Of a DNA stretch of 24,390 nt, positions 1 through 19,002 are shown piece by piece. A program made the translations under genes and the position numbers. How positions within the stretch are numbered: position 1 is the stretch's first letter; each line of letters opens with the position of its first letter. The DNA is from a virus: positions 1-24,390 of the IMG/VR virus record IMGVR_UViG_3300044974_000755. One strand, given 5' to 3'. The notes below the pieces were generated by a model. The model was not told the origin of the DNA and did not search any database. It saw nothing but the letters and a program-made list of their open reading frames with translations.

Positions 1-504
1 TGAAGAGCCATCTGTTCCACTTGTACCTGAAGAGCCATCTGTTCCAGAGCTTCCACTTGTTCCTGATGAACCATCTGTACCAGAAGTTCCTGAAGAGCCA
101 TCTGTACCAGAAGTTCCTGAAGAGCCATCTGTACCAGAAGTGCCTGAAGAGCCATCTGTTCCAGAGCTTCCACTTGTACCTGAAGAGCCATCTGTTCCAC
201 TTGTACCTGATGAACCATCTGTACCAGAAGTACCTGAAGAGCCATCTGTTCCACTTGTTCCTGATGAACCATCTGTACCAGAAGTTCCTGAAGAGCCATC
301 TGTTCCAGAAGTTCCTGAAGAGCCATCTGTTCCAGAAGTTCCTGAAGAGCCATCTGTTCCAGAAGTTCCTGAAGAGCCATCTGTTCCAGAGCTTCCACTT
401 GTTCCTGATGAACCATCTGTTCCACTTGTTCCTGATGAACCATCTGTACCAGAAGTACCTGAAGAGCCATCTGTTCCACTTGTACCTGACGTTCCACTAG
501 TACC
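1..504 (-). repeat. Minisatellite encoding Gly-X-Y triplets
   Basis: A 9-nt-based tandem repeat in which 9-nt blocks (three codons, GTS, GTD or GSS) combine into 18-, 27- and 36-nt higher-order units. A 27-nt unit recurs almost exactly about four times in a row around 285-392. The purity at nucleotide level, not just protein level, indicates recent expansion by slippage or unequal recombination. It may also be a region of collapsed or mis-sized assembly. Confidence 0.9.
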
Positions 505-660
505 CCCAGTGATACTGTCGGTTAAGGCAGAAAAATATATCTGTTGAGAATCCCCGGTTAAGGTTGGACTACCTTGTTCGTAGTTCGTTACAATATAGAG
601 CACATCGCTGGGGGCGGCTGACAGTGCTATACCTAAGTCGGTTATTCTTACATTTGCCAT
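1..660 (-). CDS. Collagen-like Gly-X-Y repeat fibre protein (partial, C-terminus beyond left edge)
   Basis: The minus-strand frame from the ATG at 660 stays open for 220 codons and leaves the window at base 1 without a stop. The first ~52 residues (starting MANVRITDLGIAL) form a short non-repetitive head. From about residue 53 onward the sequence is an unbroken series of Gly-X-Y triplets using only GTS, GTD and GSS. There is no proline, so a classical collagen helix is not assured. Phage collagen-like proteins of this kind usually form trimeric fibre shafts. Its place at the end of a tail/adhesin gene block fits a tail fibre or virion decoration. The ATG is preceded by TATTTATTA with 3 nt between. 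The plus-strand frames open here are shadows of the repeat. Function is inferred from composition and context only. Confidence 0.8.
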   Translation of the reverse strand, partial: MANVRITDLGIALSAAPSDVLYIVTNYEQGSPTLTGDSQQIYFSALTDSITGGTSGTSGTSGTDGSSGTSGTDGSSGTSGTDGSSGTSGSSGTDGSSGTSGTDGSSGTSGTDGSSGTSGTDGSSGTSGTDGSSGTSGTDGSSGTSGTDGSSGTSGTDGSSGTSGSSGTDGSSGTSGTDGSSGTSGTDGSSGTSGTDGSSGTSGSSGTDGSSGTSGTDGSS

Positions 661-702: not shown

Positions 703-1674
703 TTAACATGGACCGCATAAACTTCCAACAACAAATCCATCTGTCCCAATTTGCCACATTCCTCCCGAAGTATCGGTTGTGTCAGTATACCAAAGGTTGT
801 TGCCGTTGTATGGTGTATTTAGGGCTGCGTCTGAGTAAAATCTCAATACGTTTGACCATTGTGAAGTTGGTGAGTAAGTAGTCTGTGTCAAAGTGTATGT
901 AGAACAACTACAACTACTATCCCCTGATGAAACAGCATAGGCAGTTGAATCTTCCTGAAGAATTAGTGGATTACCGTCTTGTGTAATCAAGACGTTACCA
1001 AATTGGTCAATTATCAATATTTCGAAAACAGTTGGTGTTGAAGAAGGTGTTGGAGTTGGAGTTTGGGTTGGCGTTTCAGACGGCGTTTGAGTTGGTGTCT
1101 CAGTAGTAGTTTGTGTCGGAGTTTGAGTTGGTGTCTCGGAAGGTGTTTGAGAAGGTGTTGGCGTTTGAGTTTCTGTTGCGGTAGGAGTTGAACCAGGTGT
1201 TGCGCTAGGTGTGGGTGTTTGTGTCGGTGTTTCAGTGGTGGTAGGTGTTTGTGTCGGTGTCTCAGTGGTGGTAGGCGTTTGGGTCGGTGTCTCAGTGGTA
1301 GTTGGTGTAGGCGTTTGGGTCGGTGTCTCAGATGGCGTTATTGAAGGTGTTGGTGTATTTGTAGGTGTTGGTGATGGTGTTGCTGGAGGAGGTGTTGTCG
1401 TAGGTGTTGGTGTTGGAGAAGGGGTAACACATGGCCCAAGTTGAACCACAACCCCATTCAACATTTCAGTTCTTGTTTGAGCCGAATAATATAATGTGGC
1501 CGCTGATAATGGGTCGGGATAATTACTTACATAGACATCAAAGGGACCTAATGCGTTTGTGTTTGGTGTAATCTTTATTATATAGGAATTACAAGTATCT
1601 GCGGAAATCTGTTGTTCAATAAAATTATCACAGCCAGGTGCAGTATTTACAACGAAAATCGATTGAAGGGACAT
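703..1674 (-). CDS. Thr/Pro-rich stalk protein with N- and C-terminal globular domains (putative tail fibre/adhesin)
   Basis: I chose the ATG at 1674 (protein starts MSLQSIFVV, 323 aa) over an in-frame TTG at 1692, because the stretch between is an A-rich leader following a TATTTATTG element. Residues ~1-82 form a small domain with Cys at 15, 28 and 82. Residues ~83-215 are almost pure Thr/Pro/Ser/Gln/Glu (TPTQTP, TTTETP units), an extended stalk-like linker. Residues ~216-323 form a C-terminal domain with paired cysteines (CSC near 255-257, CGPC at the end) and several Trp/Tyr residues, plausibly a receptor-binding tip or disulfide-stabilised knob. It sits between the small Cys-rich gene and the collagen-like fibre. 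No enzymatic motif is visible. A structural role is inferred from architecture and context. Confidence 0.8.
   Translation of the reverse strand: MSLQSIFVVNTAPGCDNFIEQQISADTCNSYIIKITPNTNALGPFDVYVSNYPDPLSAATLYYSAQTRTEMLNGVVVQLGPCVTPSPTPTPTTTPPPATPSPTPTNTPTPSITPSETPTQTPTPTTTETPTQTPTTTETPTQTPTTTETPTQTPTPSATPGSTPTATETQTPTPSQTPSETPTQTPTQTTTETPTQTPSETPTQTPTPTPSSTPTVFEILIIDQFGNVLITQDGNPLILQEDSTAYAVSSGDSSCSCSTYTLTQTTYSPTSQWSNVLRFYSDAALNTPYNGNNLWYTDTTDTSGGMWQIGTDGFVVGSLCGPC
1211..1330 (-). repeat. 30-nt tandem repeat in the Thr/Pro stalk
   Basis: Three near-identical 30-nt units (1211-1240, 1241-1270, 1271-1300) encode repeats of TTTETPTQTP, with a fourth partial copy to ~1330 offset by a 6-nt insertion. 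The high nucleotide identity suggests recent tandem duplication that would change stalk length in multiples of 10 residues. Confidence 0.8.
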
Positions 1675-1689
1675 CAGGTCTTTTTTTTT

Positions 1690-1698
1690 CAATAAATA
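1690..1698 (-). promoter_or_regulatory. TATTTATTG element upstream of the PT-stalk gene
   Basis: On the coding strand TATTTATTG is followed by an A-run and the ATG at 1674, leaving about 15 nt. The same TATTTAT core precedes most non-overlapped genes here. It is a candidate promoter or translation-enhancing element. No promoter activity is demonstrated, and in such AT-rich DNA chance matches are possible. Confidence 0.35.
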
Positions 1699-1752: not shown

Positions 1753-2112
1753 TCAAACGAGCACCAAAGAACAATTTGACTCGTCTATGGATATTCCACT
1801 TATCACACAGCTTGACTCTTGAATCGAAATATTAACAATACAATCAACCAAACTTACGGTAATGTTAAATGAACATCCAAAAGTACAATCCAAAATCTTA
1901 AATAATTCACAACCGTTAGCATCAACTAATTTCAACATTATCGCCGGAGCTGTATTGAAAATTGGAGGAATCGAAGAGTTGTAACTAATTTCAGGTGGTA
2001 CTGTAGTATTGATTGTACCAATTAGGCTTTGATTATTCCCATAAACATCCGCAATGTAAACTTGAACTGGTGTGCTAGCCCCCGATATGAAGTCTATTCT
2101 TACCTGTGTCAT
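1753..2112 (-). CDS. Small Cys-rich putative tail/adhesin accessory protein
   Basis: I chose the ATG at 2112 (119 aa, starting MTQVRIDFI) over a TTG at 2121, because the ATG overlaps the TGA of the SprB-repeat gene as ATGA, a typical coupled junction. The protein is beta-rich in appearance, with six cysteines (about 68, 76, 80, 91, 102, 114), no membrane segment and no catalytic motif. Residues 64-68 (DANGC) match the end signature of SprB repeats, and the encoding 15-nt string also occurs in the neighbouring SprB gene. It may be a degenerate repeat module or a chaperone/tip protein for the adhesin next to it. I do not recognise a family. Confidence 0.75.
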   Translation of the reverse strand: MTQVRIDFISGASTPVQVYIADVYGNNQSLIGTINTTVPPEISYNSSIPPIFNTAPAIMLKLVDANGCELFKILDCTFGCSFNITVSLVDCIVNISIQESSCVISGISIDESNCSLVLV

Positions 2113-4259
2113 GACAAACAACTTATATCATAGTTTATAACCAAATCTATAACGATACTTTGATTGAGCAAAGCAGGATTTGTACCATTGGTTTGAATTG
2201 TTATTTGGTTGGTTTGTGGATTTACAATGACAGATGTTACACCAGGTACACCATAAAGTAATGTGGTAATTGTATCGTAATACAAATTATCTGAAGGAGC
2301 AACATTTAATTGTGTTGTCGTGAAGAAAGTTGTTTGACCACTCAATCCACTTGGCTCAACTTTGACTTGTGCTGTGAATGTTGCAGAGTTAAAAGTACAA
2401 CCCGAGTTTCCAAAAATTAAGTCTTGGTATCCATCATTCAACATCTGTAATAATCCAAACTGACATGGTGATACCGTAGTTAAGAACTCGGAACCCATGA
2501 CATATGTGGTATAAGAGGCGTAGGTCGAAAAACAAGAAATTGTCGTTTGTCTAGTTAGGTAACATCCTGTTAAATCAGTAATAGTAACACTATAAGTTCC
2601 TCCTGTAAGACCCGATACTGATATTTGTTGTGGATTATTAGGTACGTTATCAGACCATTGATAGGTAAATGGTGGTTGACCACTCGAAATAAATGCGGTT
2701 ATTGTACCACTATCCCCCGTTCCACAACCTGTACTGTATATTGAAAAATCTAATGGTATAGAATTACCCACAAAAACTTGTGCCGTCTGTGTACACCCTG
2801 AAGAATCTGTAACTTGAACCACATGTTGTCCTGCGGTAATATTAGTGAACGTCACAGAACTTAAAGTTGTATCTGAAAAATAAGTTATACCATCTAAACT
2901 ATATTGAAAAGGTTCAACGCCCCCACTTGTCTTTATCAATTCAATTGCCCCGTTTGAACCATTACATGTTGTTCCACTTACAAGTGTAGAAATTGTAAAT
3001 AAATTATCTGTAAAAATGTCAACATCTTGAGCGTAGGCACAACCAGTCTCATCAGTAACAAAAAGAGAATAAGTACCTGCCGATAAATTATTGAAAAACT
3101 GATTGGACTCAATTGATGTTACAATTTGTGAATTTGAGTCAGGATAAATAAGTTGGTAAGTATATGGGGGGCTTCCTTCTGTTACATTTATTAGTAAGGA
3201 ACCACCAGTACTTGAACAAACGGAGTTCTCAATCGTCAATGAAACTGAACCCAAACTTTGTGGAGTTGATATTTCTGTTCCCACAACAATATTACACAAT
3301 CCGGCGTCCGTTACTGAAAACAAATATGACCCTGAAGGTATATTATTCAAAACAAATTGTTGAGAATAAGTTATAAGTACATTTCCCGTTGAAGCAGAAT
3401 AATAATATGGTGCCGTTCCTCCTGATATGTTGAGCGTCAATGACCCGTCACTACTAAAACAAGTTGGTGTTATTGCTGAAAAGTAAGTAAACCCTAAAGG
3501 TTGAACTTCTCCGACTCCTACCGACTTTGTTCTTTTACAACCGTTAGCATCCGTAACTTCGACTGAGTATGTCCCTGTGGTCAATCCTGTTATTGTGCTT
3601 CCCGTATCACCATTACTCCAAACATAAGTGTATGGTGGTGTGCCAGTTTGACCTGTGACGTAGACTTTACCGATTGGTGTGAACGTGTTGGCACATGGGG
3701 AACTCGGCACTGAGTAGAAACCGAAATCTAACTCATTCGAACTTGAAATTATAAAACTTGGAGTGGAACCTGATGTTCCTCCAATATCCTCCGCAACAAT
3801 GTAATAACTGTCAGCAGATAAACTTGTGAAAACAAACTCTCCCGAATTAGTATAACCCGAACTTACTAAACTATTTGAGGTGGTGTAAAGATAAAAATTG
3901 GTTGTTGCCAAATTAGCGGTCGAGGTGGCACTTACCGACCCGTTATTAAGCCCACAAGTTGTATCAACGAGACCTAATATGGAAGCACAGATTCCACTAC
4001 TTACTAAGACGTTAATATTATTGTATCCGTAATTGTTAGGTGTGCTTGAATCAATTCCGTTAATTACGTAAACACCAGGAAAAAGACCCGTTCTTGTTGA
4101 TGTACCGCCGATACTATAATCTGAACCCAAATCGGGGTCGACCCATGTGACAGTATATGGTGGAGTACCCCCAGTAAATGTAATACTTATCACACCCGCA
4201 CCAGTATTCAAACTGTCACCAGTTATCAATAATGAATAATTAAGTGCTACGTTAGACAT
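2109..4259 (-). CDS. SprB-repeat protein, putative phage adhesin/tail fibre
   Basis: A 716-aa protein built mainly from ~70-residue modules of the SprB-repeat type, with a GGTPPY-like opening, a central Trp-Ser-Asn, then GTYSVxVTDxxGC at the end. Clear copies lie near residues 195-250, 265-335, 345-415, 428-497 and 510-575. A divergent one covers ~20-90, and a degenerate one ~96-170. Residues ~576-716 form a distinct C-terminal domain without the repeat. SprB repeats are known from large Bacteroidota surface adhesins, including the gliding adhesin SprB. Here there is no signal peptide and no type IX secretion C-terminal domain, and the gene overlaps an upstream virion gene by 8 nt. Display on the phage tail is therefore the likely role (inference). 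Repeat-family recognition is strong; exact function is not known. Confidence 0.85.
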   Translation of the reverse strand: MSNVALNYSLLITGDSLNTGAGVISITFTGGTPPYTVTWVDPDLGSDYSIGGTSTRTGLFPGVYVINGIDSSTPNNYGYNNINVLVSSGICASILGLVDTTCGLNNGSVSATSTANLATTNFYLYTTSNSLVSSGYTNSGEFVFTSLSADSYYIVAEDIGGTSGSTPSFIISSSNELDFGFYSVPSSPCANTFTPIGKVYVTGQTGTPPYTYVWSNGDTGSTITGLTTGTYSVEVTDANGCKRTKSVGVGEVQPLGFTYFSAITPTCFSSDGSLTLNISGGTAPYYYSASTGNVLITYSQQFVLNNIPSGSYLFSVTDAGLCNIVVGTEISTPQSLGSVSLTIENSVCSSTGGSLLINVTEGSPPYTYQLIYPDSNSQIVTSIESNQFFNNLSAGTYSLFVTDETGCAYAQDVDIFTDNLFTISTLVSGTTCNGSNGAIELIKTSGGVEPFQYSLDGITYFSDTTLSSVTFTNITAGQHVVQVTDSSGCTQTAQVFVGNSIPLDFSIYSTGCGTGDSGTITAFISSGQPPFTYQWSDNVPNNPQQISVSGLTGGTYSVTITDLTGCYLTRQTTISCFSTYASYTTYVMGSEFLTTVSPCQFGLLQMLNDGYQDLIFGNSGCTFNSATFTAQVKVEPSGLSGQTTFFTTTQLNVAPSDNLYYDTITTLLYGVPGVTSVIVNPQTNQITIQTNGTNPALLNQSIVIDLVINYDISCLS

Positions 4260-7230
4260 TACAATTTATGTTTATATTTATCCCCGTGTTTAGAACCAAT
4301 TCCTCATTAACATAATAGGGTGACGATGTTAAGTTCACAAAACTGATATTATTCCCATTTATATAGAATGTATATCCATAATTGTAAAGTTGTGGTAAGT
4401 ATTGAATCAAAGCATTTCTCCAATCTGTAGCGGTTGGTATGTCATTTGAGCCAACACCATAAAAAAAAGGTTGTTGTATAAGAATATTATTTCCAATTCT
4501 TAAATCAATATACCATGTGGTGGTAACTGAATCTAAAATACATTGAGTCAGGCTAACACCTGATGAACTTAACATACTATTGACAGAAAAATATAATATC
4601 GAGCTGAAATTAGAAACTTGTACATCCCCGTTCAACCATGGGTAAATTGAGAATGATGGATTAACACAATTAGAGGTGTAATTGAAAATACCGCTTGATA
4701 TTTTACATGGATTTGCCTCGACAGGTTCTTCGATACAACCTCTCTGTCTTCTATAAACAAATTTTTGTTTGTGTAGAACGGAGTTCTCGAATTTTATACC
4801 TCCTTGCCAAATGGTTGTAGCAGGAATCATTTGTTCCACCAACTTCATCCAATACGGACCTATACCTTCTACATAATCAATTAATTTCTGATAAGTGTAT
4901 TTGTTATTTGGTAAACCAACAGTTTGTTCAGATTGGATATATTTCCACCAAATGGACTGTAAGGTTGGGTATCCTCCTGTTTTTCCATCCGTTATGTATA
5001 ATCTATTTCTTGTGTTCACCATATTTTCCCAAAAAGTTTGGTAGAACTCAAAAAATGTTTTTTGTTTTGGCTGTGGATTTACATAAGTCCAGTCAACACC
5101 ACCAGGTACAGGGTATCCCACCGTGAGACCAGATTCAGGAATCGGATAGTCATATCTTCTTGATTGGTCCCAAACATCGTAAACTAATCCTTGAGCAGGA
5201 TTTAAGAATAAATCTATGTTTTTGACATTAAGAACAAGTTTTTCATTCCCAACATAATAGTAGGCGTTGTAATCCGCTTGATTCGATATCCTTAACTTAT
5301 CATCATCATCTAACCAACTCTTATTATTATCAATAATCTTCCTTAACTTGAATCCCAGGTTCATATATGGAAAATCTCTGTATCTATCGAGATAAAGTTG
5401 ACCATAGGTAAAAGGTTGTAGTTGTGTTTGAATATCGATGTTTTGACCTGTGTATACATTTCCTGTGATGGTAACTTGGTCAGGACTTCTATGTTGTGGT
5501 GTAACCTCGTACCAACCCGCACCAAGTTGGAAGAAATAATTTTCAGTATCTCTCGGTGCCTTCGGATAACCTAAATCATCTACAGGATAATCATCTCGAG
5601 TGATTATTGCTGCTTCATACGTAGCGGAAGAAGTAAATGCTGAAAATAAAACCCCTTTTACTTTAAAAGTAACTCCTGGTAAATATGTTGGCGTTTGCTC
5701 AACATATGTTCCACCAGTAATTGCCAGATATTGTGTTGTAAAGTTTTTTAAATTTATTCTTTGGTCGGCTAAATAAATGTGTTCGTTATACTCAATCAAT
5801 GATTCGGGAGCACCAATCAATCTCATTAGAAACTCTATAGACCTTCTTGTACCTTTTGACTTAAACAAATAAGCGGCGTTCAAGATTAAATTTCTGTAGA
5901 AGGCGTAGTTTAATTCTGTTGGTGTTAAAGCTCTAGCGTAACCAGGGTAATTGGGTTTACTTTGGTTGCCAAACACGGAGTCCAAGAAATTTTCATTCGT
6001 TATTGGTGAAAAGTTAGAAGACCATCCGAGTGTTTGAGACAAGTTGACTAATAATTGATTCGGAATGTTATTTCCTGGGTTATATTGAACTGAGTTCATA
6101 AACGCCAAGGACTCAATAAATTGTTTTACTTGGTCAAAGCTCCTACCATATATTTGTAATATCTTTTCAACCTTTTGATTTAGGGTATCGAATTCTTTTA
6201 TAGCATCAGTAACCAAAAACCTCGAAATTAGGTTTGTCTTATAAGAGTCTAAATCTACAGCAATAGATTGAAGTTGGGTTAAGTATGTATCAAAAGCGGC
6301 ACCGAGAATTGACAAGTTCCATGGTCCATCTTTTGGCCACGTTACTTGTTGATAATTGGTATAAAACTGACCCGCTTGATTCTGTGCTGGTATTTGGAAG
6401 AAAGCAGTATACTCAGGAACAGTCAATCTGTTAATCAAAAACTTTTCAACCTCATCGAAATCTTCGAGAAATACCTTATCAACGATGTAGTCGTTTGGTC
6501 TTACTAAGAAATTACCGAAATAAGTTGTTGCTGTCGTTGGGAAAGGTTGTCCTGAAACGTAAAAACCCAAAGGACCTGTAGTGGTAGAAGGTGACGGTTC
6601 AAAACCAACAACCTTATATTCGATATCATTAATAGAAATGGCATAATCCAAATACGTTTCGGTTAGGTTTCTATACTTTGAGGTGATAATTTCACGAGCC
6701 TCAATATTTGTAGTGGCACTTACACTATATTCAATCGCAAATGGGTTATTCAATCTATCAAGGTTGACCTGAAAGAATGTCTCATCTGAAATAGAATCGT
6801 ACGTGATATTGATAGCGGTTGCCCCTGTTGTAAAATCAATATTATCAAATAAAACTTCTATTGCCGCAGGAAAATAGTTAATAATTTTGGTTACAGAAAC
6901 ACTGAACCTTTTGGCTAAAGAACCATACAAAGAAAAATTAAGAACTTGAGAAACATCATAATTAGGATAGACTCTAAACTGAGTTGCTTGAATCGCTCTA
7001 CTTTGTAAAACATCTTCTAAACCCAAATCATCCAATGATAAAGGTTCGGAGAATGCCCCAACATTAAAGGTTCTATTTACCTTTTCTGTAACAATGTCAT
7101 TAAAATCAAAAACACCTAACGTAAGTCCTCCACCATTGACAGTCTGTAAACCAACAATGTTGTCAGAGAAAGTTCCCGCACCATTACCAGGTCTCGGAGG
7201 GTAAAAATATTTGGTTCTTGAAGTACTCAT
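4252..7230 (-). CDS. Large baseplate/tail protein with tail-protein-I-like motif (possible gp7/Tri2 counterpart)
   Basis: A 992-aa protein. Residues ~451-475 contain AAYLFKSKGTRRSIEFLMR followed by LIGAPE. This resembles the KGT..(S/A)..xxLxxxG signature of P2 gpI-type tail proteins, which occupy the gp7 position in contractile-tail wedges. The preceding helical region (~312-400) would suit the wedge-binding part. A later stretch (YVEGIGPYWMKLVEQMIPAT) is also helical. The last ~130 residues look like a separate beta domain. It starts at an ATGA junction with the upstream gene and overlaps the SprB-repeat gene by 8 nt, so it may anchor that adhesin. T4 gp7 is of similar size (1032 aa). The gp7 link is inference from the motif and the presence of gp25 and gp6 upstream. 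An alternative is a fibre-attachment protein. Confidence 0.6.
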   Translation of the reverse strand: MSTSRTKYFYPPRPGNGAGTFSDNIVGLQTVNGGGLTLGVFDFNDIVTEKVNRTFNVGAFSEPLSLDDLGLEDVLQSRAIQATQFRVYPNYDVSQVLNFSLYGSLAKRFSVSVTKIINYFPAAIEVLFDNIDFTTGATAINITYDSISDETFFQVNLDRLNNPFAIEYSVSATTNIEAREIITSKYRNLTETYLDYAISINDIEYKVVGFEPSPSTTTGPLGFYVSGQPFPTTATTYFGNFLVRPNDYIVDKVFLEDFDEVEKFLINRLTVPEYTAFFQIPAQNQAGQFYTNYQQVTWPKDGPWNLSILGAAFDTYLTQLQSIAVDLDSYKTNLISRFLVTDAIKEFDTLNQKVEKILQIYGRSFDQVKQFIESLAFMNSVQYNPGNNIPNQLLVNLSQTLGWSSNFSPITNENFLDSVFGNQSKPNYPGYARALTPTELNYAFYRNLILNAAYLFKSKGTRRSIEFLMRLIGAPESLIEYNEHIYLADQRINLKNFTTQYLAITGGTYVEQTPTYLPGVTFKVKGVLFSAFTSSATYEAAIITRDDYPVDDLGYPKAPRDTENYFFQLGAGWYEVTPQHRSPDQVTITGNVYTGQNIDIQTQLQPFTYGQLYLDRYRDFPYMNLGFKLRKIIDNNKSWLDDDDKLRISNQADYNAYYYVGNEKLVLNVKNIDLFLNPAQGLVYDVWDQSRRYDYPIPESGLTVGYPVPGGVDWTYVNPQPKQKTFFEFYQTFWENMVNTRNRLYITDGKTGGYPTLQSIWWKYIQSEQTVGLPNNKYTYQKLIDYVEGIGPYWMKLVEQMIPATTIWQGGIKFENSVLHKQKFVYRRQRGCIEEPVEANPCKISSGIFNYTSNCVNPSFSIYPWLNGDVQVSNFSSILYFSVNSMLSSSGVSLTQCILDSVTTTWYIDLRIGNNILIQQPFFYGVGSNDIPTATDWRNALIQYLPQLYNYGYTFYINGNNISFVNLTSSPYYVNEELVLNTGINININCNV

Positions 7231-11728: not shown

Positions 11729-13166
11729 TCGGGAGATACTTTGTTTTAAATTTATCCAAAGCTGTTTGTCCTTTCATAATTCCAAAATAGAATTGGTTAG
11801 GAGCACCTACAATAAATTCACTTCTCATGTTAGGAAAGGTTTGTCTTCTATAATTACCGGCAGCGTCAGAGCTGAATATATACCCTCTCTGAGTTGTGTC
11901 AGGGAAAGTGGTAAAGTTTACAAAATAACTCGGTGTCGTAATTCTTCTCCTATCTAACGATTGATATGGAAAAAACTTGATTCCTGTTAAAGATGGGTTG
12001 GTTACATTATAATTTGTATACCAATCATTTTTCTCACTCCCAAAAATTGTTTGGAAGGTTAGATTTGCCGGTTGAGTAAGTTTCCACTGATAGAAAGGAA
12101 CAACTTGAGATTTTATTCCGAAGTCGTAGGTTATTGCGTTTTGATTAGAATTAGGTCTGAAGTTCAGTCGACCTGGACTCAAAAAGTCCTTGTTTTGTAA
12201 ATCAACTGTTGTTGAAGAAAAGAAAACTCCCATTGTTGGTTGATTCAAATCACCCACGATAACCACAGGGTCTGAGGTCTGACCAAACACACTATAAAAC
12301 TCAGGAGAAAAAGGTATAAGTCCAAGCTCACAATTTATTGACAAAAGTTGTGTTACATCTGCATCTAATCTTTGTTTTCTTCTTTGTGATACGTTAGAAA
12401 ATCTAGTAAACAATAAAGACAACGCATCGTTCTTACCAATCTGAATAAGATTTTGTAAAAATTTCCTATTTGTGATTCTCGATATGGCAAACATGTTAAT
12501 CAAGTCAGATGTATCAGAATAACTTGTGGGTGCCAAAGTCCTCATTAGATAGGCGTTAGTTCCAGGGTCGAATGAAATCTCTCTATAAACTTCGTCCTTC
12601 ATACCCAAATTAGCAATTGTAGTAGGAAATAATAAATTCCTCTGATTAGTTGGAGAGTCGTCTGTGATTGTAGGTCTACCTATAAATGGTTGGTTATTTG
12701 TCGAACCGGTATAATAAGGAGAACTTCTATAATAATAGTTGTTAGTATCCGCATCAAAGTATGCCAATTGTTTAGCGAAGTTAGGCCGACCTGGTTTGTT
12801 ATTTTTATCGTAAATCCTATCAACTTGAATCGGGAACATAAATAAGGAACCGTTAATCCAATTGTTTGTAAATGATTGTGCCAAAACCCCTCTACATAAA
12901 CCAAAGAAAAATCTAAATCTGAAACCCCATTCTTGGAAAGTTAATATATCCTTCGTCAAATCCTTCCAAATATTTCTAGCCAATACATAACAACCATTTT
13001 CAACAGTATCCCCACTAGGACAAGAAGGTATTACACCAAAATTGACTCCATCTCCACTATAACAGGTCAATGAAACCAAATTCTCACACTCGAAAGAATC
13101 TAAAACGTTGATAGAAGCTAATTGACCAGCAATATCCGGACTTACCAACTCAGCACCTCCTGCCAT
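11721..13166 (-). CDS. Putative virion (baseplate/tail) structural protein, 481 aa
   Basis: No family recognised. Its start overlaps the 1149-aa gene by 17 nt and its end overlaps the 563-aa gene by 8 nt, so the three are likely translated together. The N-terminal 60 residues carry four cysteines (27, 35, 49, 59). They are followed by an aromatic segment (FQEWGFRFRFFFGLC, ~77-91) that looks like a buried interface or a short amphipathic patch rather than a true transmembrane helix. The remainder is a soluble, Asn/Thr/Phe-rich sequence. By position it could correspond to a T4 wedge protein such as gp8, but I see no sequence support for that. Confidence 0.7.
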   Translation of the reverse strand: MAGGAELVSPDIAGQLASINVLDSFECENLVSLTCYSGDGVNFGVIPSCPSGDTVENGCYVLARNIWKDLTKDILTFQEWGFRFRFFFGLCRGVLAQSFTNNWINGSLFMFPIQVDRIYDKNNKPGRPNFAKQLAYFDADTNNYYYRSSPYYTGSTNNQPFIGRPTITDDSPTNQRNLLFPTTIANLGMKDEVYREISFDPGTNAYLMRTLAPTSYSDTSDLINMFAISRITNRKFLQNLIQIGKNDALSLLFTRFSNVSQRRKQRLDADVTQLLSINCELGLIPFSPEFYSVFGQTSDPVVIVGDLNQPTMGVFFSSTTVDLQNKDFLSPGRLNFRPNSNQNAITYDFGIKSQVVPFYQWKLTQPANLTFQTIFGSEKNDWYTNYNVTNPSLTGIKFFPYQSLDRRRITTPSYFVNFTTFPDTTQRGYIFSSDAAGNYRRQTFPNMRSEFIVGAPNQFYFGIMKGQTALDKFKTKYLPNE

Positions 13167-16100
13167 ATTTGCTGTGGTTAATTGAAATCCCGAAACTCAG
13201 GTTTTGCTGTAATAATGCCGGATTGTAATTCCAATCTGAACCATCCAACGTGTCTGATGAAGGTAGACGGTCAGTTCTCATTACATTTCTAACGTTTGAC
13301 GTTATTTGGAAAGGAGTAGAACCCGTAAAACTCGGAAGTAAAACTTTAGACCAATAGTACGTTATACAGTTTTCTGGTTTAAATCCTCCAGGGTATTGAG
13401 GTCCTGTGTTCACCTGTAACCAATAAAAAGCGGCTCCCGATAAATCTTCATTAGATTGATAAGTGGCGAATTGTCTTTCGGGGGTAGGAGGACTATTTAA
13501 AACAAATTTATTTGCGGTTTGTGAAACAACACCTACGGGTAAAGAGAGGAATGGATATGCGTTCTGTGGATAATTATCCCTGTCGAGTGCCCCATAATAA
13601 CCGACAGCCGACGTAGTATAAGCAGACCATTGACTACCTCCCCTAAAGAAATGTGATGGATAAAATATGTTTGTTTGAGAATTAAATCTTTGAATTGACA
13701 TAGAACTATCATTCAACTTCTGAATGGGTATGTTAATTCTAGTTGATGCGGTCACCGTAAGAGCATTCTCACTTGGGAAACCAAAAATTTTACCAATACC
13801 AAAACGATTAACATATTGTGGTGAGTATGGGTCAACCCCCCTTTGTAGAATTGTTATATATTGCGTATCAAAGTTAGGATATAAGCTTCTGATGTTATAA
13901 GGCTGAGTGTCTTGAGGTGCCCATCCGAAGGGACCAAATTTAACATATGTTACTACTGTATTAGAATTCAATAGAGTTGGGAAATAAGGTCCTGTGGTAT
14001 TGTTCCAAAGTACTGCCGCTTCGCTAACAGTAAGAGCAGTAACCACTTGATAATACTCAATATCACTTGGATAAGAATAATTTGTATTTGTAGACCCTGT
14101 TGTCAAGTTGTAATCAACACTGAGGTTGTTCAATTGGTCATTCGGGTTACAATATTCAACAGTGTATTGAGACGCACCTGGATTGAGAGGGGTTCCACTA
14201 ATTCCATTCGGGAACCCTGTCTGAGCACTATATGCGGGTGTAAAATAGTTTCTGTCTCTCGATGAATCTGGTGTAACGAAAGTCAACATACTTCCAGTCT
14301 CAAGTTTCGTTGTTAACAAAACTGTAAGTGTGTTATCAAAATGTTGTACTTGAACGTTTCCCGGATAATCAAACGAGACACTTATTCTATTGATACCACC
14401 ATTATCATCAAAATATTTTGCTCTTGTATTGAAAACGTTTATTCTCTCAGCCATCGGAAGATTTGATGAAAAAGAATAAATGTCTGAAGCTAAAGCCGCC
14501 TGTGTATTGGGAAATCTTGATACCGGTGACTTGGTGGTTTTATATATGTTTATATTATTTTGTGAAAGATTATTTGTTCCTATTGCGTTCGCAATACTCA
14601 AAGCAAATGTTTGTTGATTGTCAGGATTTTGTTGTGATACTGGAGGTAAAACCGTTACACTATCAATGTAATTTACAAATCTCGAAAATGGGGTAAAGAA
14701 TGAGTTGTAATTGGAAACGAGTCCTTCGTATAATGAATCACCACTACAATCACACGCAACACAAGATGGATATGTTAATGCGGGGAGTTTTATTGGCCCG
14801 AATGGCTGTTTACCTAACCATTTGGTTATGGCGTCCCACACTAAAGCAAAAGCAGCCCATTTAGCCGAAATCAATAGTTCGTAAACACCTGCTCCGGCAA
14901 CTCCACTCAAAACGCCCAAAAATAACATAGCAGCAACTAAGGCGTGAAGTCCCGAGACAACCCATAGAAATGTTGAAAAGGGTTGCTTCAATTCATACAA
15001 AAATTCATAAATTCTTGCAGCTAAATGGTATGACCATATCAAAATGGGACCCAATAGTTGTAAAACTTGTAGAAGAATTGAATAAACGAAAAAAGTCAAA
15101 TCGAAATTTCTAAACCCTTCATTCACAGGAAACTTATTAATAGTTTGTTCACAACTATCATTGTTAATTTCTTTGATTCCAACAAATCTACCCCTAGCAC
15201 CATTTTTAAATTCGTCTATCAAACCGGCAACTGTGTAAACTCTGTTAAATGAGAATTGATAAAACGTGTCTTCGCAATCAATTACCTCCTGAAGTCTATT
15301 CAATTTAGCTTGTCCTGTAAATCCTTGCGTGTATCCTGACCAATCCAAACCGAAATAATATGAACTCTTTAAGCTGTCTGGTGGAGTAAAAAATGAATTC
15401 GGGTCTGTGTTGATGTCAGGCCATCCATACTCTTTCACGTTCGGTACAAGATAGTATGGTCTCCTCACTTGTTCAGTAAGGTTCTGTGATTGCTGCCACT
15501 TTATCTTGAATCTATATTTGGCCCTTGTTGGAATACCAATAGCAGGGTCATTTGATAGAACAGTTTCTCCGAACTCGTTAGTGACTAAATAATCCAAATT
15601 CATTGGTAACTCCACAACCCATGTCCCATCACCATCTATTAAGTTACCATTTTGTTCCAAACCATATCTTTCTATTATCGGATTACCATCCTCGTCTTGA
15701 AAAATTGTTTGTCTTATAGCAACGATTTGTCCCGGACCCGCCTGTAAACCACATAAGTTACCAAAATCATCTCTCGGTCTTGCGTTTTTCCTTATTCTGA
15801 AGTTGTCACCTGTGGAGTAGATTGAGCCCATGAAAACAGCCGTCGGTTGAATATCAACGTTAGCGTCATCTCTCAAATCAAAATCCATTCGATTGATAGC
15901 AATTTGACAAAGTGACTCAGCTCCCCAAAGAGGAGCAATTTCTATATTCCTGTTGAAGGATATGATTTGAGGTAGTGAATTCAGGTCGTTCGATGTCCTG
16001 AATGTGTTCCCGTTTACTTGGGATTCTGTTGCCAAACCCATTCTAATCAAATCTTGAGGAGTGAGTGAAAACTCCCCTATATCAGACAAATCAACATCCA

Positions 16101-16599
16101 TGAAAAGTAGTTGGTCTCCCAATGGAGCACCCATAATCATGTAATCACCACTATCATTGGTTTTAGTAGTGAATTTATAATATTTGTCATATATTTCTAC
16201 AACTGTACTTCCTGTAAGAGCGTCTGCTCGTGTTGGTAATGTCCCTGTTGCGGCATGTGTTGAATAGGATTTTTCGTATGGAAGAAGATTATATCTGTAC
16301 CCATCTTCATTTTTATCATCCACTGATTTATATGGATAGATACTTGTTATTATAGGGTTGGATTCATCAATCGATTCTATCGGTATGAATATCGAAACTC
16401 TCGCATTTGGAATTCCAAAACCACCGTTAGCTGTGACTCTACCTACAACCACACCATAATCAGCACAATTCCTATTATAGATTTCAGATTGTAATATTTT
16501 CAAGGACAGGATTTCTAAAAATTCGAAATCTTGGTCTAACTGTATGTTCAGCGTTTTGTTGGTACCTAACTCTGTTCTAATTCTATAGGATTGTCCCAT
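13150..16599 (-). CDS. Giant baseplate-region protein with Ig-like N-terminus and central hydrophobic block
   Basis: A 1149-aa protein, first gene after gp6. Residues ~49-75 and ~143-168 (GRVTANGGFGIPNARVSI..., then NDSGDYMIMGAPLG) resemble a carboxypeptidase-regulatory-like beta-sandwich, split by an insertion. Residues ~500-596 form a long hydrophobic block with several helix-length stretches (FFVYSILLQVLQLLGPIL; FLWVVSGLHALVAAMLFLG; WAAFALVW). A Cys cluster, CxxCxC at 613-618, follows directly. The remaining ~530 residues are soluble and Asn/Thr/Tyr-rich. The hydrophobic block is unusual for a baseplate protein and could be membrane-active or form an internal helical bundle. The start follows a TATTTATTA element. 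By position it may replace a T4 wedge protein, but the family is unrecognised. Confidence 0.75.
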   Translation of the reverse strand: MGQSYRIRTELGTNKTLNIQLDQDFEFLEILSLKILQSEIYNRNCADYGVVVGRVTANGGFGIPNARVSIFIPIESIDESNPIITSIYPYKSVDDKNEDGYRYNLLPYEKSYSTHAATGTLPTRADALTGSTVVEIYDKYYKFTTKTNDSGDYMIMGAPLGDQLLFMDVDLSDIGEFSLTPQDLIRMGLATESQVNGNTFRTSNDLNSLPQIISFNRNIEIAPLWGAESLCQIAINRMDFDLRDDANVDIQPTAVFMGSIYSTGDNFRIRKNARPRDDFGNLCGLQAGPGQIVAIRQTIFQDEDGNPIIERYGLEQNGNLIDGDGTWVVELPMNLDYLVTNEFGETVLSNDPAIGIPTRAKYRFKIKWQQSQNLTEQVRRPYYLVPNVKEYGWPDINTDPNSFFTPPDSLKSSYYFGLDWSGYTQGFTGQAKLNRLQEVIDCEDTFYQFSFNRVYTVAGLIDEFKNGARGRFVGIKEINNDSCEQTINKFPVNEGFRNFDLTFFVYSILLQVLQLLGPILIWSYHLAARIYEFLYELKQPFSTFLWVVSGLHALVAAMLFLGVLSGVAGAGVYELLISAKWAAFALVWDAITKWLGKQPFGPIKLPALTYPSCVACDCSGDSLYEGLVSNYNSFFTPFSRFVNYIDSVTVLPPVSQQNPDNQQTFALSIANAIGTNNLSQNNINIYKTTKSPVSRFPNTQAALASDIYSFSSNLPMAERINVFNTRAKYFDDNGGINRISVSFDYPGNVQVQHFDNTLTVLLTTKLETGSMLTFVTPDSSRDRNYFTPAYSAQTGFPNGISGTPLNPGASQYTVEYCNPNDQLNNLSVDYNLTTGSTNTNYSYPSDIEYYQVVTALTVSEAAVLWNNTTGPYFPTLLNSNTVVTYVKFGPFGWAPQDTQPYNIRSLYPNFDTQYITILQRGVDPYSPQYVNRFGIGKIFGFPSENALTVTASTRINIPIQKLNDSSMSIQRFNSQTNIFYPSHFFRGGSQWSAYTTSAVGYYGALDRDNYPQNAYPFLSLPVGVVSQTANKFVLNSPPTPERQFATYQSNEDLSGAAFYWLQVNTGPQYPGGFKPENCITYYWSKVLLPSFTGSTPFQITSNVRNVMRTDRLPSSDTLDGSDWNYNPALLQQNLSFGISINHSKYGRRC

Positions 16600-16684: not shown

Positions 16685-18523
16685 TTAAGACAAGGTAACT
16701 GTTTGGAAATTCTTAACTGAAACTCTAATATCTTTATTAGGATATCTTATTTGATAAACTTGACTCGGTTGAGCGAATATTGTGTCATCTACAGGTTGAA
16801 TTAACTTTGTTGCCGGGTCAGCGTATTCCATCGATGTTTCCGCTGACGAGTATTGACCCCCCACTTCATTAAAAATATCTAAGCTGGCCACAGTCAGAAC
16901 ACCATTAGTGTTTTGTACAATACTTTTAATTTCGGAAAGGTAAACATTTTGACCCAATTGTCTGAGTTGTGGGTTGAAATAAGTAGATATCTTATCAATA
17001 ACATTTGTGATTACTTGTCCTGAGTTTTGTGCCGAGTCGAGTACTATAGAAATATCAACACTTAAGTCGATAACTTCAGCACTGAAAATAGAAATATAAT
17101 CGTTCATCATTCGATAGTTCGAAAGATAGCTGGCAATGTTTTGTCTCATCGTATTAGAAACAATTGAAGTCAGTTTCCCTGAAGAGTCGTATGATAAAAT
17201 TTGTATTAAAATCTTATTGTTATTTTCAGTTATGGAAACTTTAGCAGGTGCTCCAAACTGAGAAGGCATGTTTCTTATAATTGACTCATAGTCTTGAACG
17301 GTAACAGCTCTCTTTTGAGCCGCAAAATTATATGTAACATAATTCCTAACTTCTTCTATATTAGGTGCTCCCGCTCCACCGACAGCCGCTGTTACGTTTG
17401 TACATCTCAATGAGTTGACAACTGATTGGTTTGTTTGTTCGGAGGGTCCGTTAACAAAGAACGAGACAGTACCCACTTGATTAATTACGTTTGTACCTAA
17501 GTTTGTCCCCAATCCACCTCCAACTCTATATTGTATAAACAATGTTGAATTAGGTGATAACGTAGAACCTAACGAAAAGTTATTTGAGTATTTTTGTAAA
17601 TCCAACGTTGTTCCTAAAGTGGTGAATTGATTTAAGGCGTCTTGAGCAGTGTTTGTTCCACCACCGAAAGTTAGTTTTTTGAAACCCTCTGAAGTATATT
17701 CAGAAATAAAACGATTTTGAGTTTGTATATATCTACCCACCTTGATTCCTGGTTGGTCAGAAACTTTTGTTGGGTCTTCAACCCAAACTCTATCTTCTGC
17801 TAAGGCGTCTACTTCGTACCATTTATTTTCAAGACCTAAAAACTCCGACACAGTCGGTACATTCGTATATTGTGTGCCATTCTTTAAGAGGACACTTGTG
17901 ATACCCAATACGTTTTTTTCAGGTAGGTATAACTCGAAGAACGGCTTTACATCGTTTGGAGAGATAACTCTTTTAAATACTTTTGTAATACCGTTAACAA
18001 CTATCTCCCTTTTTGTTATTGTGTAATTTAATAAAACTCCATTACCATTAAAGTTCGGAATTTTTAACCTATTGAGAACCCCTTGAGAATTGTAAGGTGA
18101 TGAAAAATCAATGTCCTCGACATTTTCAAAAACTATTCCGGCGCCGACTACCTGAGACCCCCTCTGAAGAATTCCCAAATATCTTTCATCTTCTTTATCT
18201 CCGAAAACAGGAACTGTGATAGAAAAATCAACAATAGCAACTGAAGGTCTTTGTCCAGGTATTTTTAAACCGTAAGTTCTGGCTATATTATAAACAGAAT
18301 TTTTCTGTTGGGCATACTGTAAAACTGTTTCTTGAACACTCCTGTCTATATTATAGTTGAGATTGTCGGCAACTGCCGCGTTCAAATCCAAGAACACTGA
18401 AAAAACCGAAGCGTCGTTAAAATCCTGAATAAGTTCCGGATAATATGTTCTAACATAATTTTGAAGTTCAGTTCTAATTGCCTGAAAATCTCTGGTTGCG
18501 TACGATATTTTTCTGTTTGCCAT
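16685..18523 (-). CDS. 6: Baseplate wedge protein gp6-like (baseplate J family)
   Basis: A 612-aa protein of the T4 gp6 / P2 gpJ type, which forms the wedge ring connecting the central hub to the periphery and transmits the sheath-contraction signal. The N-terminus (residues ~13-90) has the characteristic pattern: YPEL, DLNAAVADNLNYNID, a helical QETVLQYAQ segment, and YGLKIPG. The region ~401-430 (AVTVQDYESIIRNMPSQ, FGAPAKVSI) is the typical J-family core. Length is close to T4 gp6 (660 aa). It follows gp25 by 5 nt and is the first of the long virion genes. The gp25-gp6 order is conserved in contractile tail systems. Confidence in the family is high. Confidence 0.92.
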   Translation of the reverse strand: MANRKISYATRDFQAIRTELQNYVRTYYPELIQDFNDASVFSVFLDLNAAVADNLNYNIDRSVQETVLQYAQQKNSVYNIARTYGLKIPGQRPSVAIVDFSITVPVFGDKEDERYLGILQRGSQVVGAGIVFENVEDIDFSSPYNSQGVLNRLKIPNFNGNGVLLNYTITKREIVVNGITKVFKRVISPNDVKPFFELYLPEKNVLGITSVLLKNGTQYTNVPTVSEFLGLENKWYEVDALAEDRVWVEDPTKVSDQPGIKVGRYIQTQNRFISEYTSEGFKKLTFGGGTNTAQDALNQFTTLGTTLDLQKYSNNFSLGSTLSPNSTLFIQYRVGGGLGTNLGTNVINQVGTVSFFVNGPSEQTNQSVVNSLRCTNVTAAVGGAGAPNIEEVRNYVTYNFAAQKRAVTVQDYESIIRNMPSQFGAPAKVSITENNNKILIQILSYDSSGKLTSIVSNTMRQNIASYLSNYRMMNDYISIFSAEVIDLSVDISIVLDSAQNSGQVITNVIDKISTYFNPQLRQLGQNVYLSEIKSIVQNTNGVLTVASLDIFNEVGGQYSSAETSMEYADPATKLIQPVDDTIFAQPSQVYQIRYPNKDIRVSVKNFQTVTLS

Positions 18524-18528
18524 CTATG

Positions 18529-19002
18529 TTAAATATTAACAATAACAAAATCACTTTCAGCAAACGTTTGTCCGTTTGTAGAATAGTCAATTCTTATTTT
18601 TGCCGTATACTCAGAGGTCCCTTTACCAGGCACTCTGAGGATATCATATACTCTGGTATCACCAGGTTGTGACCTATAAGTTAGGGTATCAACTTCATCA
18701 GCAGAATCGGCAGGTTCTATGGTTATTTTATTAACCAAAAGGTTCGGCATAAATCTTTGTATAGAATCTCGAATATCGGCCTCAATGGCTGAAAAGGTTA
18801 AACCATCAAACGGTTCAAACAAAAACTCATAAAGTCTTGTACCAAACTCTGGTAAGTAATATCTGGCACCTTTCCTTGTTAATAGTAAGTGTGTAAGGTC
18901 TGCTCTTATTTGTTGTGCCCTATAGTCTGTGACTTGAAGATAATCTCCTTGGAGTGAGTCGGCAAAAGGGAAATTTATCCCATATGTAATTCCATTAGCC
19001 AT
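18529..19002 (-). CDS. 25: Baseplate wedge protein gp25-like (GPW/gp25 family)
   Basis: A 157-aa member of the GPW/gp25 family, the small sheath-proximal wedge protein that binds gp6 and initiates sheath polymerisation. Residues 45-64 (GARYYLPEFGTRLYEFLFEP) match the family signature around the conserved EFG(T/S)xL. A short helix follows (SAIEADIRDSIQRFMP), then the usual beta strands. It is slightly longer than T4 gp25 (132 aa), with an extra C-terminal tail. It is separated by 5 nt from gp6, its known partner. The ATG at 19002 is preceded by TATTTATC with only a 4-nt gap and no Shine-Dalgarno sequence. Confidence 0.93.
   Translation of the reverse strand: MANGITYGINFPFADSLQGDYLQVTDYRAQQIRADLTHLLLTRKGARYYLPEFGTRLYEFLFEPFDGLTFSAIEADIRDSIQRFMPNLLVNKITIEPADSADEVDTLTYRSQPGDTRVYDILRVPGKGTSEYTAKIRIDYSTNGQTFAESDFVIVNI

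Follow-up and report, generated by a model that had tools for sequence, protein, structure and literature searches.

The 716-aa protein encoded at 2109..4259 on the minus strand of a 24.4-kb virus contig (an IMG/VR virus record, analysed over its full 24,390 nucleotides and called the window here) carries seven SprB-type Ig-like modules, a short linker, and an alpha/beta C-terminal domain (CTD). We consider it probable that this is a conserved structural protein, the fixed-length shaft of a tail or baseplate fibre, with the CTD as its docking part. The SprB array is far above chance and is kept across hundreds of viral contigs, and the phage group that carries it is large, uncultured, and contractile-tailed.

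Genomic Context and Phage Type

The main features of the tail region are as follows.

18529..19002 (-): gp25-like baseplate wedge protein (phrog_261 E 2e-16; PF04965 E 6e-13)
16685..18523 (-): gp6/Baseplate_J-like wedge protein (phrog_219 E 3e-28; PF04865 E 1.5e-7)
4252..7230 (-): 992-aa tail-region protein, conserved partner in 80/80 fetched relatives
2109..4259 (-): 716-aa SprB-array protein (domain layout as given above)
1753..2121 (-): 122-aa protein, next in the operon; at 2112 an in-frame ATG forms an ATGA overlap with the stop codon of the SprB gene
703..1692 (-): 329-aa candidate distal or tip protein, Pro/Thr-rich linker, variable end (homologues 160-855 aa)
1..660 (-): collagen-like (GTSGTDGSS) tail-fibre gene, start only, cut by the contig end

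The minus-strand order begins with genes for an exonuclease-like protein, a 2OG-Fe(II) oxygenase, a DnaB-like helicase, and a class II (B12-dependent) ribonucleotide reductase, passes through the gp25- and gp6-like baseplate genes, several unnamed genes of structural appearance and the 992-aa protein, and ends with the SprB-array, 122-aa, and Pro/Thr-linker proteins and the truncated collagen-like fibre. The SprB-array ORF (4259..2109, minus strand) starts with ATG and shares 4252-4259 with the 992-aa gene and 2109-2121 with the 122-aa gene. The ORF coordinates thus confirm, on both sides, the overlaps with tail-region neighbours that had been described in a sequence-only reading of this DNA. 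The same reading had placed SprB-type modules in a phage tail-region gene, in agreement with the gp25- and gp6-like genes upstream in the window and with the tail sheath of sibling contigs, which is encoded by 5/5 long relatives. One of these is a 66-kb contig that carries the same proteins at 99-100% identity to the window. A host-chromosome origin, which that reading had named as the alternative to a phage genome, was ruled out: the contig is a virus record with baseplate genes, and its relatives have sheath and terminase. In the 326-kb relative the collagen-like fibre homologue is 1706 aa long and ends in a C-terminal Peptidase_S74 chaperone. The baseplate wedge genes upstream, the collagen/S74 fibre downstream, and the sheath in the long relatives count in favour of a fibre role, and the synteny points to the SprB-array protein as a virion component.

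Three further observations were made on these contigs. In the collagen-like gene, the 66-kb contig of this phage seems to stop close to where the window does, and the shared end point in the GTSGTDGSS repeat is probably an assembly break. The 1149-aa protein at 13150-16599 of the window, between the baseplate and fibre genes, shows long hydrophobic membrane-like stretches by eye and has no family match in Pfam or PHROGs. The 326-kb relative has 12 clustered tRNA genes (L237 6622-13149).

Seven SprB/Ig-Like Modules

The Pfam profile PF13573 (SprB) matched the 716-aa protein in six stretches at E 4e-25, with 87.6 bits against a cut-off of 28, and was found in 47/47 orthologues. The proposal of SprB-type repeats therefore held when the profile search was run, the score lying well over the curated cut-off. 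A PHROGs search with the protein returned no useful family. In the AlphaFold2 (AF2) model, built on an alignment of 47 orthologues (mean pLDDT 81.6), the protein folds into a chain of seven beta-sandwich modules with the alpha/beta CTD set apart from them, the structure prediction thus giving the distinct repeat and C-terminal parts into which the sequence-only reading had divided the protein. These tandem beta-sandwich domains also gave Foldseek matches to Ig-like arrays. The overall shape of the seven-module rod would not be fixed by this model, because its pTM is only 0.35. The modules are as follows.

3999..4259 (-): module 1, residues 1-87, divergent SprB type; AF2 strands, hhalign to M3-M7, motif GGTPPYTVTW
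3735..3998 (-): module 2, residues 88-175, divergent; hhalign M5 E 3e-10, M6 E 8e-14, M7 E 2e-8
3507..3734 (-): module 3, residues 176-251, clear SprB; Pfam, motif GTPPYTYVW..GTYSVEVTDANGC, hhalign M7 E 7e-23
3261..3506 (-): module 4, residues 252-333, clear SprB; best Pfam stretch 265-293, hhalign
3009..3260 (-): module 5, residues 334-417, clear SprB; motif, hhalign
2763..3008 (-): module 6, residues 418-499, clear SprB; motif, hhalign
2529..2762 (-): module 7, residues 500-577, clear SprB; motif, hhalign

When the modules were compared by hhalign, each had strong links to others (E 1e-8 or better), and the M1-M2 pair by itself was weak. By this comparison all seven modules are homologous, the two divergent N-terminal ones included. 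Since every module is strongly linked, the original count of five clear and about two divergent modules was right, Pfam, AF2, and hhalign together giving seven.

A C-Terminal Domain Common to Two Adjacent Proteins

Two related C-terminal domains were located.

2112..2453 (-): CTD of the SprB-array protein, residues about 603-716, topology H-b-b-H-b-b-b (AF2; hhalign to the 992-aa CTD)
4647-4255 (-): CTD of the 992-aa protein, residues about 862-992 (hhalign; AF2 topology)

The linker ahead of the first (577-600) is low-confidence and floppy in AF2. The CTD aligned by hhalign with the last ~130 residues of the 992-aa protein at E 5.8e-7 and probability 92, the best of 50 column-shuffled control runs reaching E 0.012, and both domains were predicted by AF2 with the same helix-strand-strand-helix-three-strand topology. 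On these profile and model comparisons the two CTDs are homologous. No hhalign match was observed between the CTD and the other operon proteins, and in the three long genomes searched the CTD was confined to the SprB-array and 992-aa proteins. The distinct C-terminal domain that had been proposed is therefore present, but it is not unique, as the 992-aa protein ends in a homologous one. Profile searches gave no family name for the 992-aa protein or for the CTD, and tblastn of the 992-aa protein against the annotated phage collection gave no match; its AF2 model was poor (pLDDT 50.8) and a fold search with that model was uninformative.

The CTD homology and the common predicted topology were counted in favour of docking and a shaft: the CTD would be a docking module joining the shaft to the 992-aa protein, the baseplate, or the next fibre segment. 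The domain in common with a tail-region protein also counts against the idea of a Hoc-like Ig protein decorating the capsid, which we regard as highly improbable. That idea can draw on a Hoc-like match to phrog_4069 (E 1e-3, over one module) and on weak matches to the decoration proteins 5lxk and 8zvi, but the gene overlaps its neighbours inside the baseplate/fibre operon in every fetched relative.

Fixed Length and Distribution

IMG/VR was scanned with the 992-aa protein, which gave 235 relatives, and with the SprB alignment, which gave 480. Eighty loci were fetched from the scan with the 992-aa protein, and in 78/80 the 992-aa gene is followed immediately by an SprB orthologue downstream; the other two contigs end there. 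Among 57 distinct complete orthologues, 50 span 710-725 aa and one has 684 aa; the remaining six exceed this range because a Pro/Thr-rich linker comes after the CTD, joined in 4/6 by a further variable domain. Variability is thus found beyond the CTD or in the next gene, as Pro/Thr linkers and beta-propeller-like or other ends. A separate motif scan gave at least 120 stretches; in 54/80 fetched loci there is an orthologue that extends to the CTD, nearly always with seven modules, and this number is still kept in orthologues as low as ~33% identity. Conservation in the orthologue alignment is fairly even across the array, with no hypervariable region. The synteny, the length, and the module number retained at this distance count in favour of a fixed shaft.

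For pairs whose 992-aa proteins lie in the 80-90% identity band, the mean pairwise identity drops from gene to gene along the operon, with 92% for the 303-aa protein, 85% for the 992-aa protein, 70% for the SprB-array protein, and 63% for the Pro/Thr-linker protein, which fits a gradient from buried core to exposed parts. The SprB-array protein therefore diverges faster than the 992-aa core protein, and this counts against a shaft, as it could reflect selection at a binding surface.

The faster divergence is one of the points that favour a multivalent receptor-binding protein, whose SprB modules, captured or mimicked from a gliding adhesin, would bind a host surface polysaccharide or receptor. 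The family of the modules, the mostly Bacteroidota SprB modules found as nearest nonorthologous relatives, and the crAssphage BACON array discussed below point the same way. We nevertheless judge it unlikely. Length and module number are fixed, conservation is even, and the variable parts lie elsewhere, in C-terminal extensions and in the Pro/Thr-linker protein; moreover, the module positions are old phage clades, with which bacterial modules mostly share 35-40% identity. A reading of the array as a fast-changing receptor-recognition part is weakened accordingly, the module number being fixed and the length nearly so while the Pro/Thr-linker and tip lengths vary. Fixed length with variable parts elsewhere fits a shaft and docking role better than a primary receptor-binding protein. 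In the preferred reading, the seven tandem modules would make up a fixed-length rod that serves as the shaft of a tail or baseplate fibre. Host specificity would come chiefly from distal elements that vary: the Pro/Thr-linker protein, the C-terminal extensions of some phages, and the collagen-like fibre.

Origin of the Modules

When phage and bacterial modules were placed in one tree, the phage modules grouped by position into seven clades free of bacterial sequences, with support of 0.68-0.998 that comes from short domains; taken together, the phage modules interleave with the bacterial ones. For 6/7 positions the nearest relatives outside the own position are mainly bacterial, mostly at 35-40% identity, in a sample where bacterial modules outnumber phage ones, which favours bacterial nearest matches. 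A genome scan gave bacterial relatives almost exclusively from Bacteroidota; the CTD is fully covered by none of them, the best two reaching residues 643-648. To judge from these sequences, the array is old, either put together from already divergent SprB-type modules or diverged that far since, and the position-specific clades place it before the radiation of the phage group. The comparison with bacterial SprB modules had been suggested at the outset together with capture of a host module. It bore out the Bacteroidota affinity of the relatives and did not support capture as a recent event, against which the module divergence and the position-specific clades speak. That the virion array is an ancient captured piece of a Bacteroidota gliding or adhesin system, engaging the polysaccharides or partners that host SprB engages too, seems to us very unlikely.

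Secretion Signals and Host

The N-terminus of the SprB-array protein, MSNVALNYSLLITGDSLNTG, has no signal-peptide-like stretch as judged by eye, the T9SS C-terminal signal CHU_C (TIGR04131) was not detected with Pfam, and an NCBIfam search gave zero matches. The sole T9SS-signal match, Por_Secre_tail (TIGR04183), is sub-threshold (E 0.046, 14.5 bits against a cut-off of 27) and lies inside module 7. The two marks of a secreted SprB gliding adhesin, a signal peptide and a T9SS C-terminal signal, are both missing from the window protein, just as the first reading had it. Their absence and the location of the gene in a structural operon make it extremely improbable that the protein is a host-type adhesin which the infected cell would make and present on its surface, even if other phages do encode SprB and CHU_C proteins with signal-peptide-like starts.

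A Shine-Dalgarno signal was present upstream of 0-5% of the clade genes versus 3-5% of shuffled ones, that is, without excess; in the controls it reached 28% in a Microcystis phage, and a Flavobacterium phage resembled the clade. A 133-kb clade member (contig G004, L380:3606-8141 (+)) encodes a 1511-aa PKD and CHU_C protein with a signal-peptide-like start. Such a T9SS-type protein makes sense only with a T9SS host. From these two lines of evidence the host phylum is almost certainly Bacteroidota, as first proposed. The Bacteroidota promoter motif TTG-N18-21-TAnnTTTG was rejected as host evidence: it was enriched in 2/3 contigs, yet the Microcystis control had a twofold excess too.

Known Relatives

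The gliding adhesins of PF13573 have the same repeat family (E 4e-25) and the same motif, GGTPPY...GTYSVxVTDxxGC, but the window protein differs from them by its fixed seven modules, its phage-specific CTD, its phage operon, and the lack of secretion signals. The top BFVD fold match (E 1e-60) was A0A6J5LD72 of an uncultured Caudovirales phage, a 714-aa protein with 33% identity along the whole protein and a probable orthologue. Its database annotation is "SprB repeat" only, so SprB repeats in phages were already present in databases; a search of open-licence papers for SprB with phage or tail fibre gave no paper describing the gene or A0A6J5LD72. The closest solved folds are fragments of the grappling-hook protein GhpA of Aureispira (9fly, 9flp, 9flw; E 5.6e-19, 18% identity), a surface appendage from the Bacteroidota that is likewise built of Ig-like modules in tandem. 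GhpA is a cellular protein of at least ~5,000 residues without the phage CTD, and the whole-chain TM-score of 0.19 limits the similarity to the module level.

In the tandem-repeat BACON protein of crAssphage, too, a domain of Bacteroidota surface proteins forms an array within a tail gene whose layout is conserved; the domain family, phage group, and module number are different (PMC6949934). A host-binding role has been proposed for that array, but the solved BACON domain is described as a linker and not a binder (PMC6949934), which argues against receptor binding.

The Citrobacter phage KKP_3664 has a fibritin-like tail-region protein whose Ig modules also match PF13573 (E 2.5e-13). Because of this match, the SprB label denotes a sequence type of Ig-like module and is alone no proof of gliding-adhesin descent. 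The Citrobacter protein differs in having Fibritin_C and I-set-like Ig modules, no CTD, and an unrelated phage as its source. It lies between gp12 and gp13 of a T4-like genome, and in T4 itself wac is located after the baseplate genes. The SprB-array gene has a similar position, and the best PDB sequence-profile match of its product, at E 7e-5, is to 9occ, a putative neck whiskers protein, so that a neck whisker or fibritin-like collar fibre, rather than a baseplate or tail fibre, had to be weighed. We think it quite unlikely. The 9occ match spans about one Ig domain only, Pfam reported no Fibritin_C (foldon) in the window protein, and fibre genes come next; by eye, the 326-kb relative then has a collagen-like fibre and sugar/glycosyltransferase-like genes and no recognisable neck genes.

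SprB repeats were also observed in another setting. The 642-kb phage LR756502.1 (L101:18894-23906) encodes a 1670-aa protein with a signal-peptide-like start, 13 SprB stretches, PKD, and CHU_C, which by its domains is a host-type secreted adhesin in a huge phage. IMG/VR contigs of 166 kb and 281 kb (L303:3235-10805 (-), L381:5360-8977 (+)) encode SprB, PKD, and CHU_C proteins with signal-peptide-like starts, two of the genes being adjacent. These two records may be host contamination, because terminase phrog_2 was not found in them.

Significance

The results single out a conserved SprB array of virion type in a large uncultured phage group and set it apart from a second use of the same repeats, in phage-encoded secreted T9SS adhesins. 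Predictions follow on which tail parts would set host range in Bacteroidota phages. If the array were an ancient adhesin capture, the phage could exploit adhesin contacts or surfaces associated with gliding as a route to its receptor. The CTD common to adjacent genes offers a concrete docking hypothesis.
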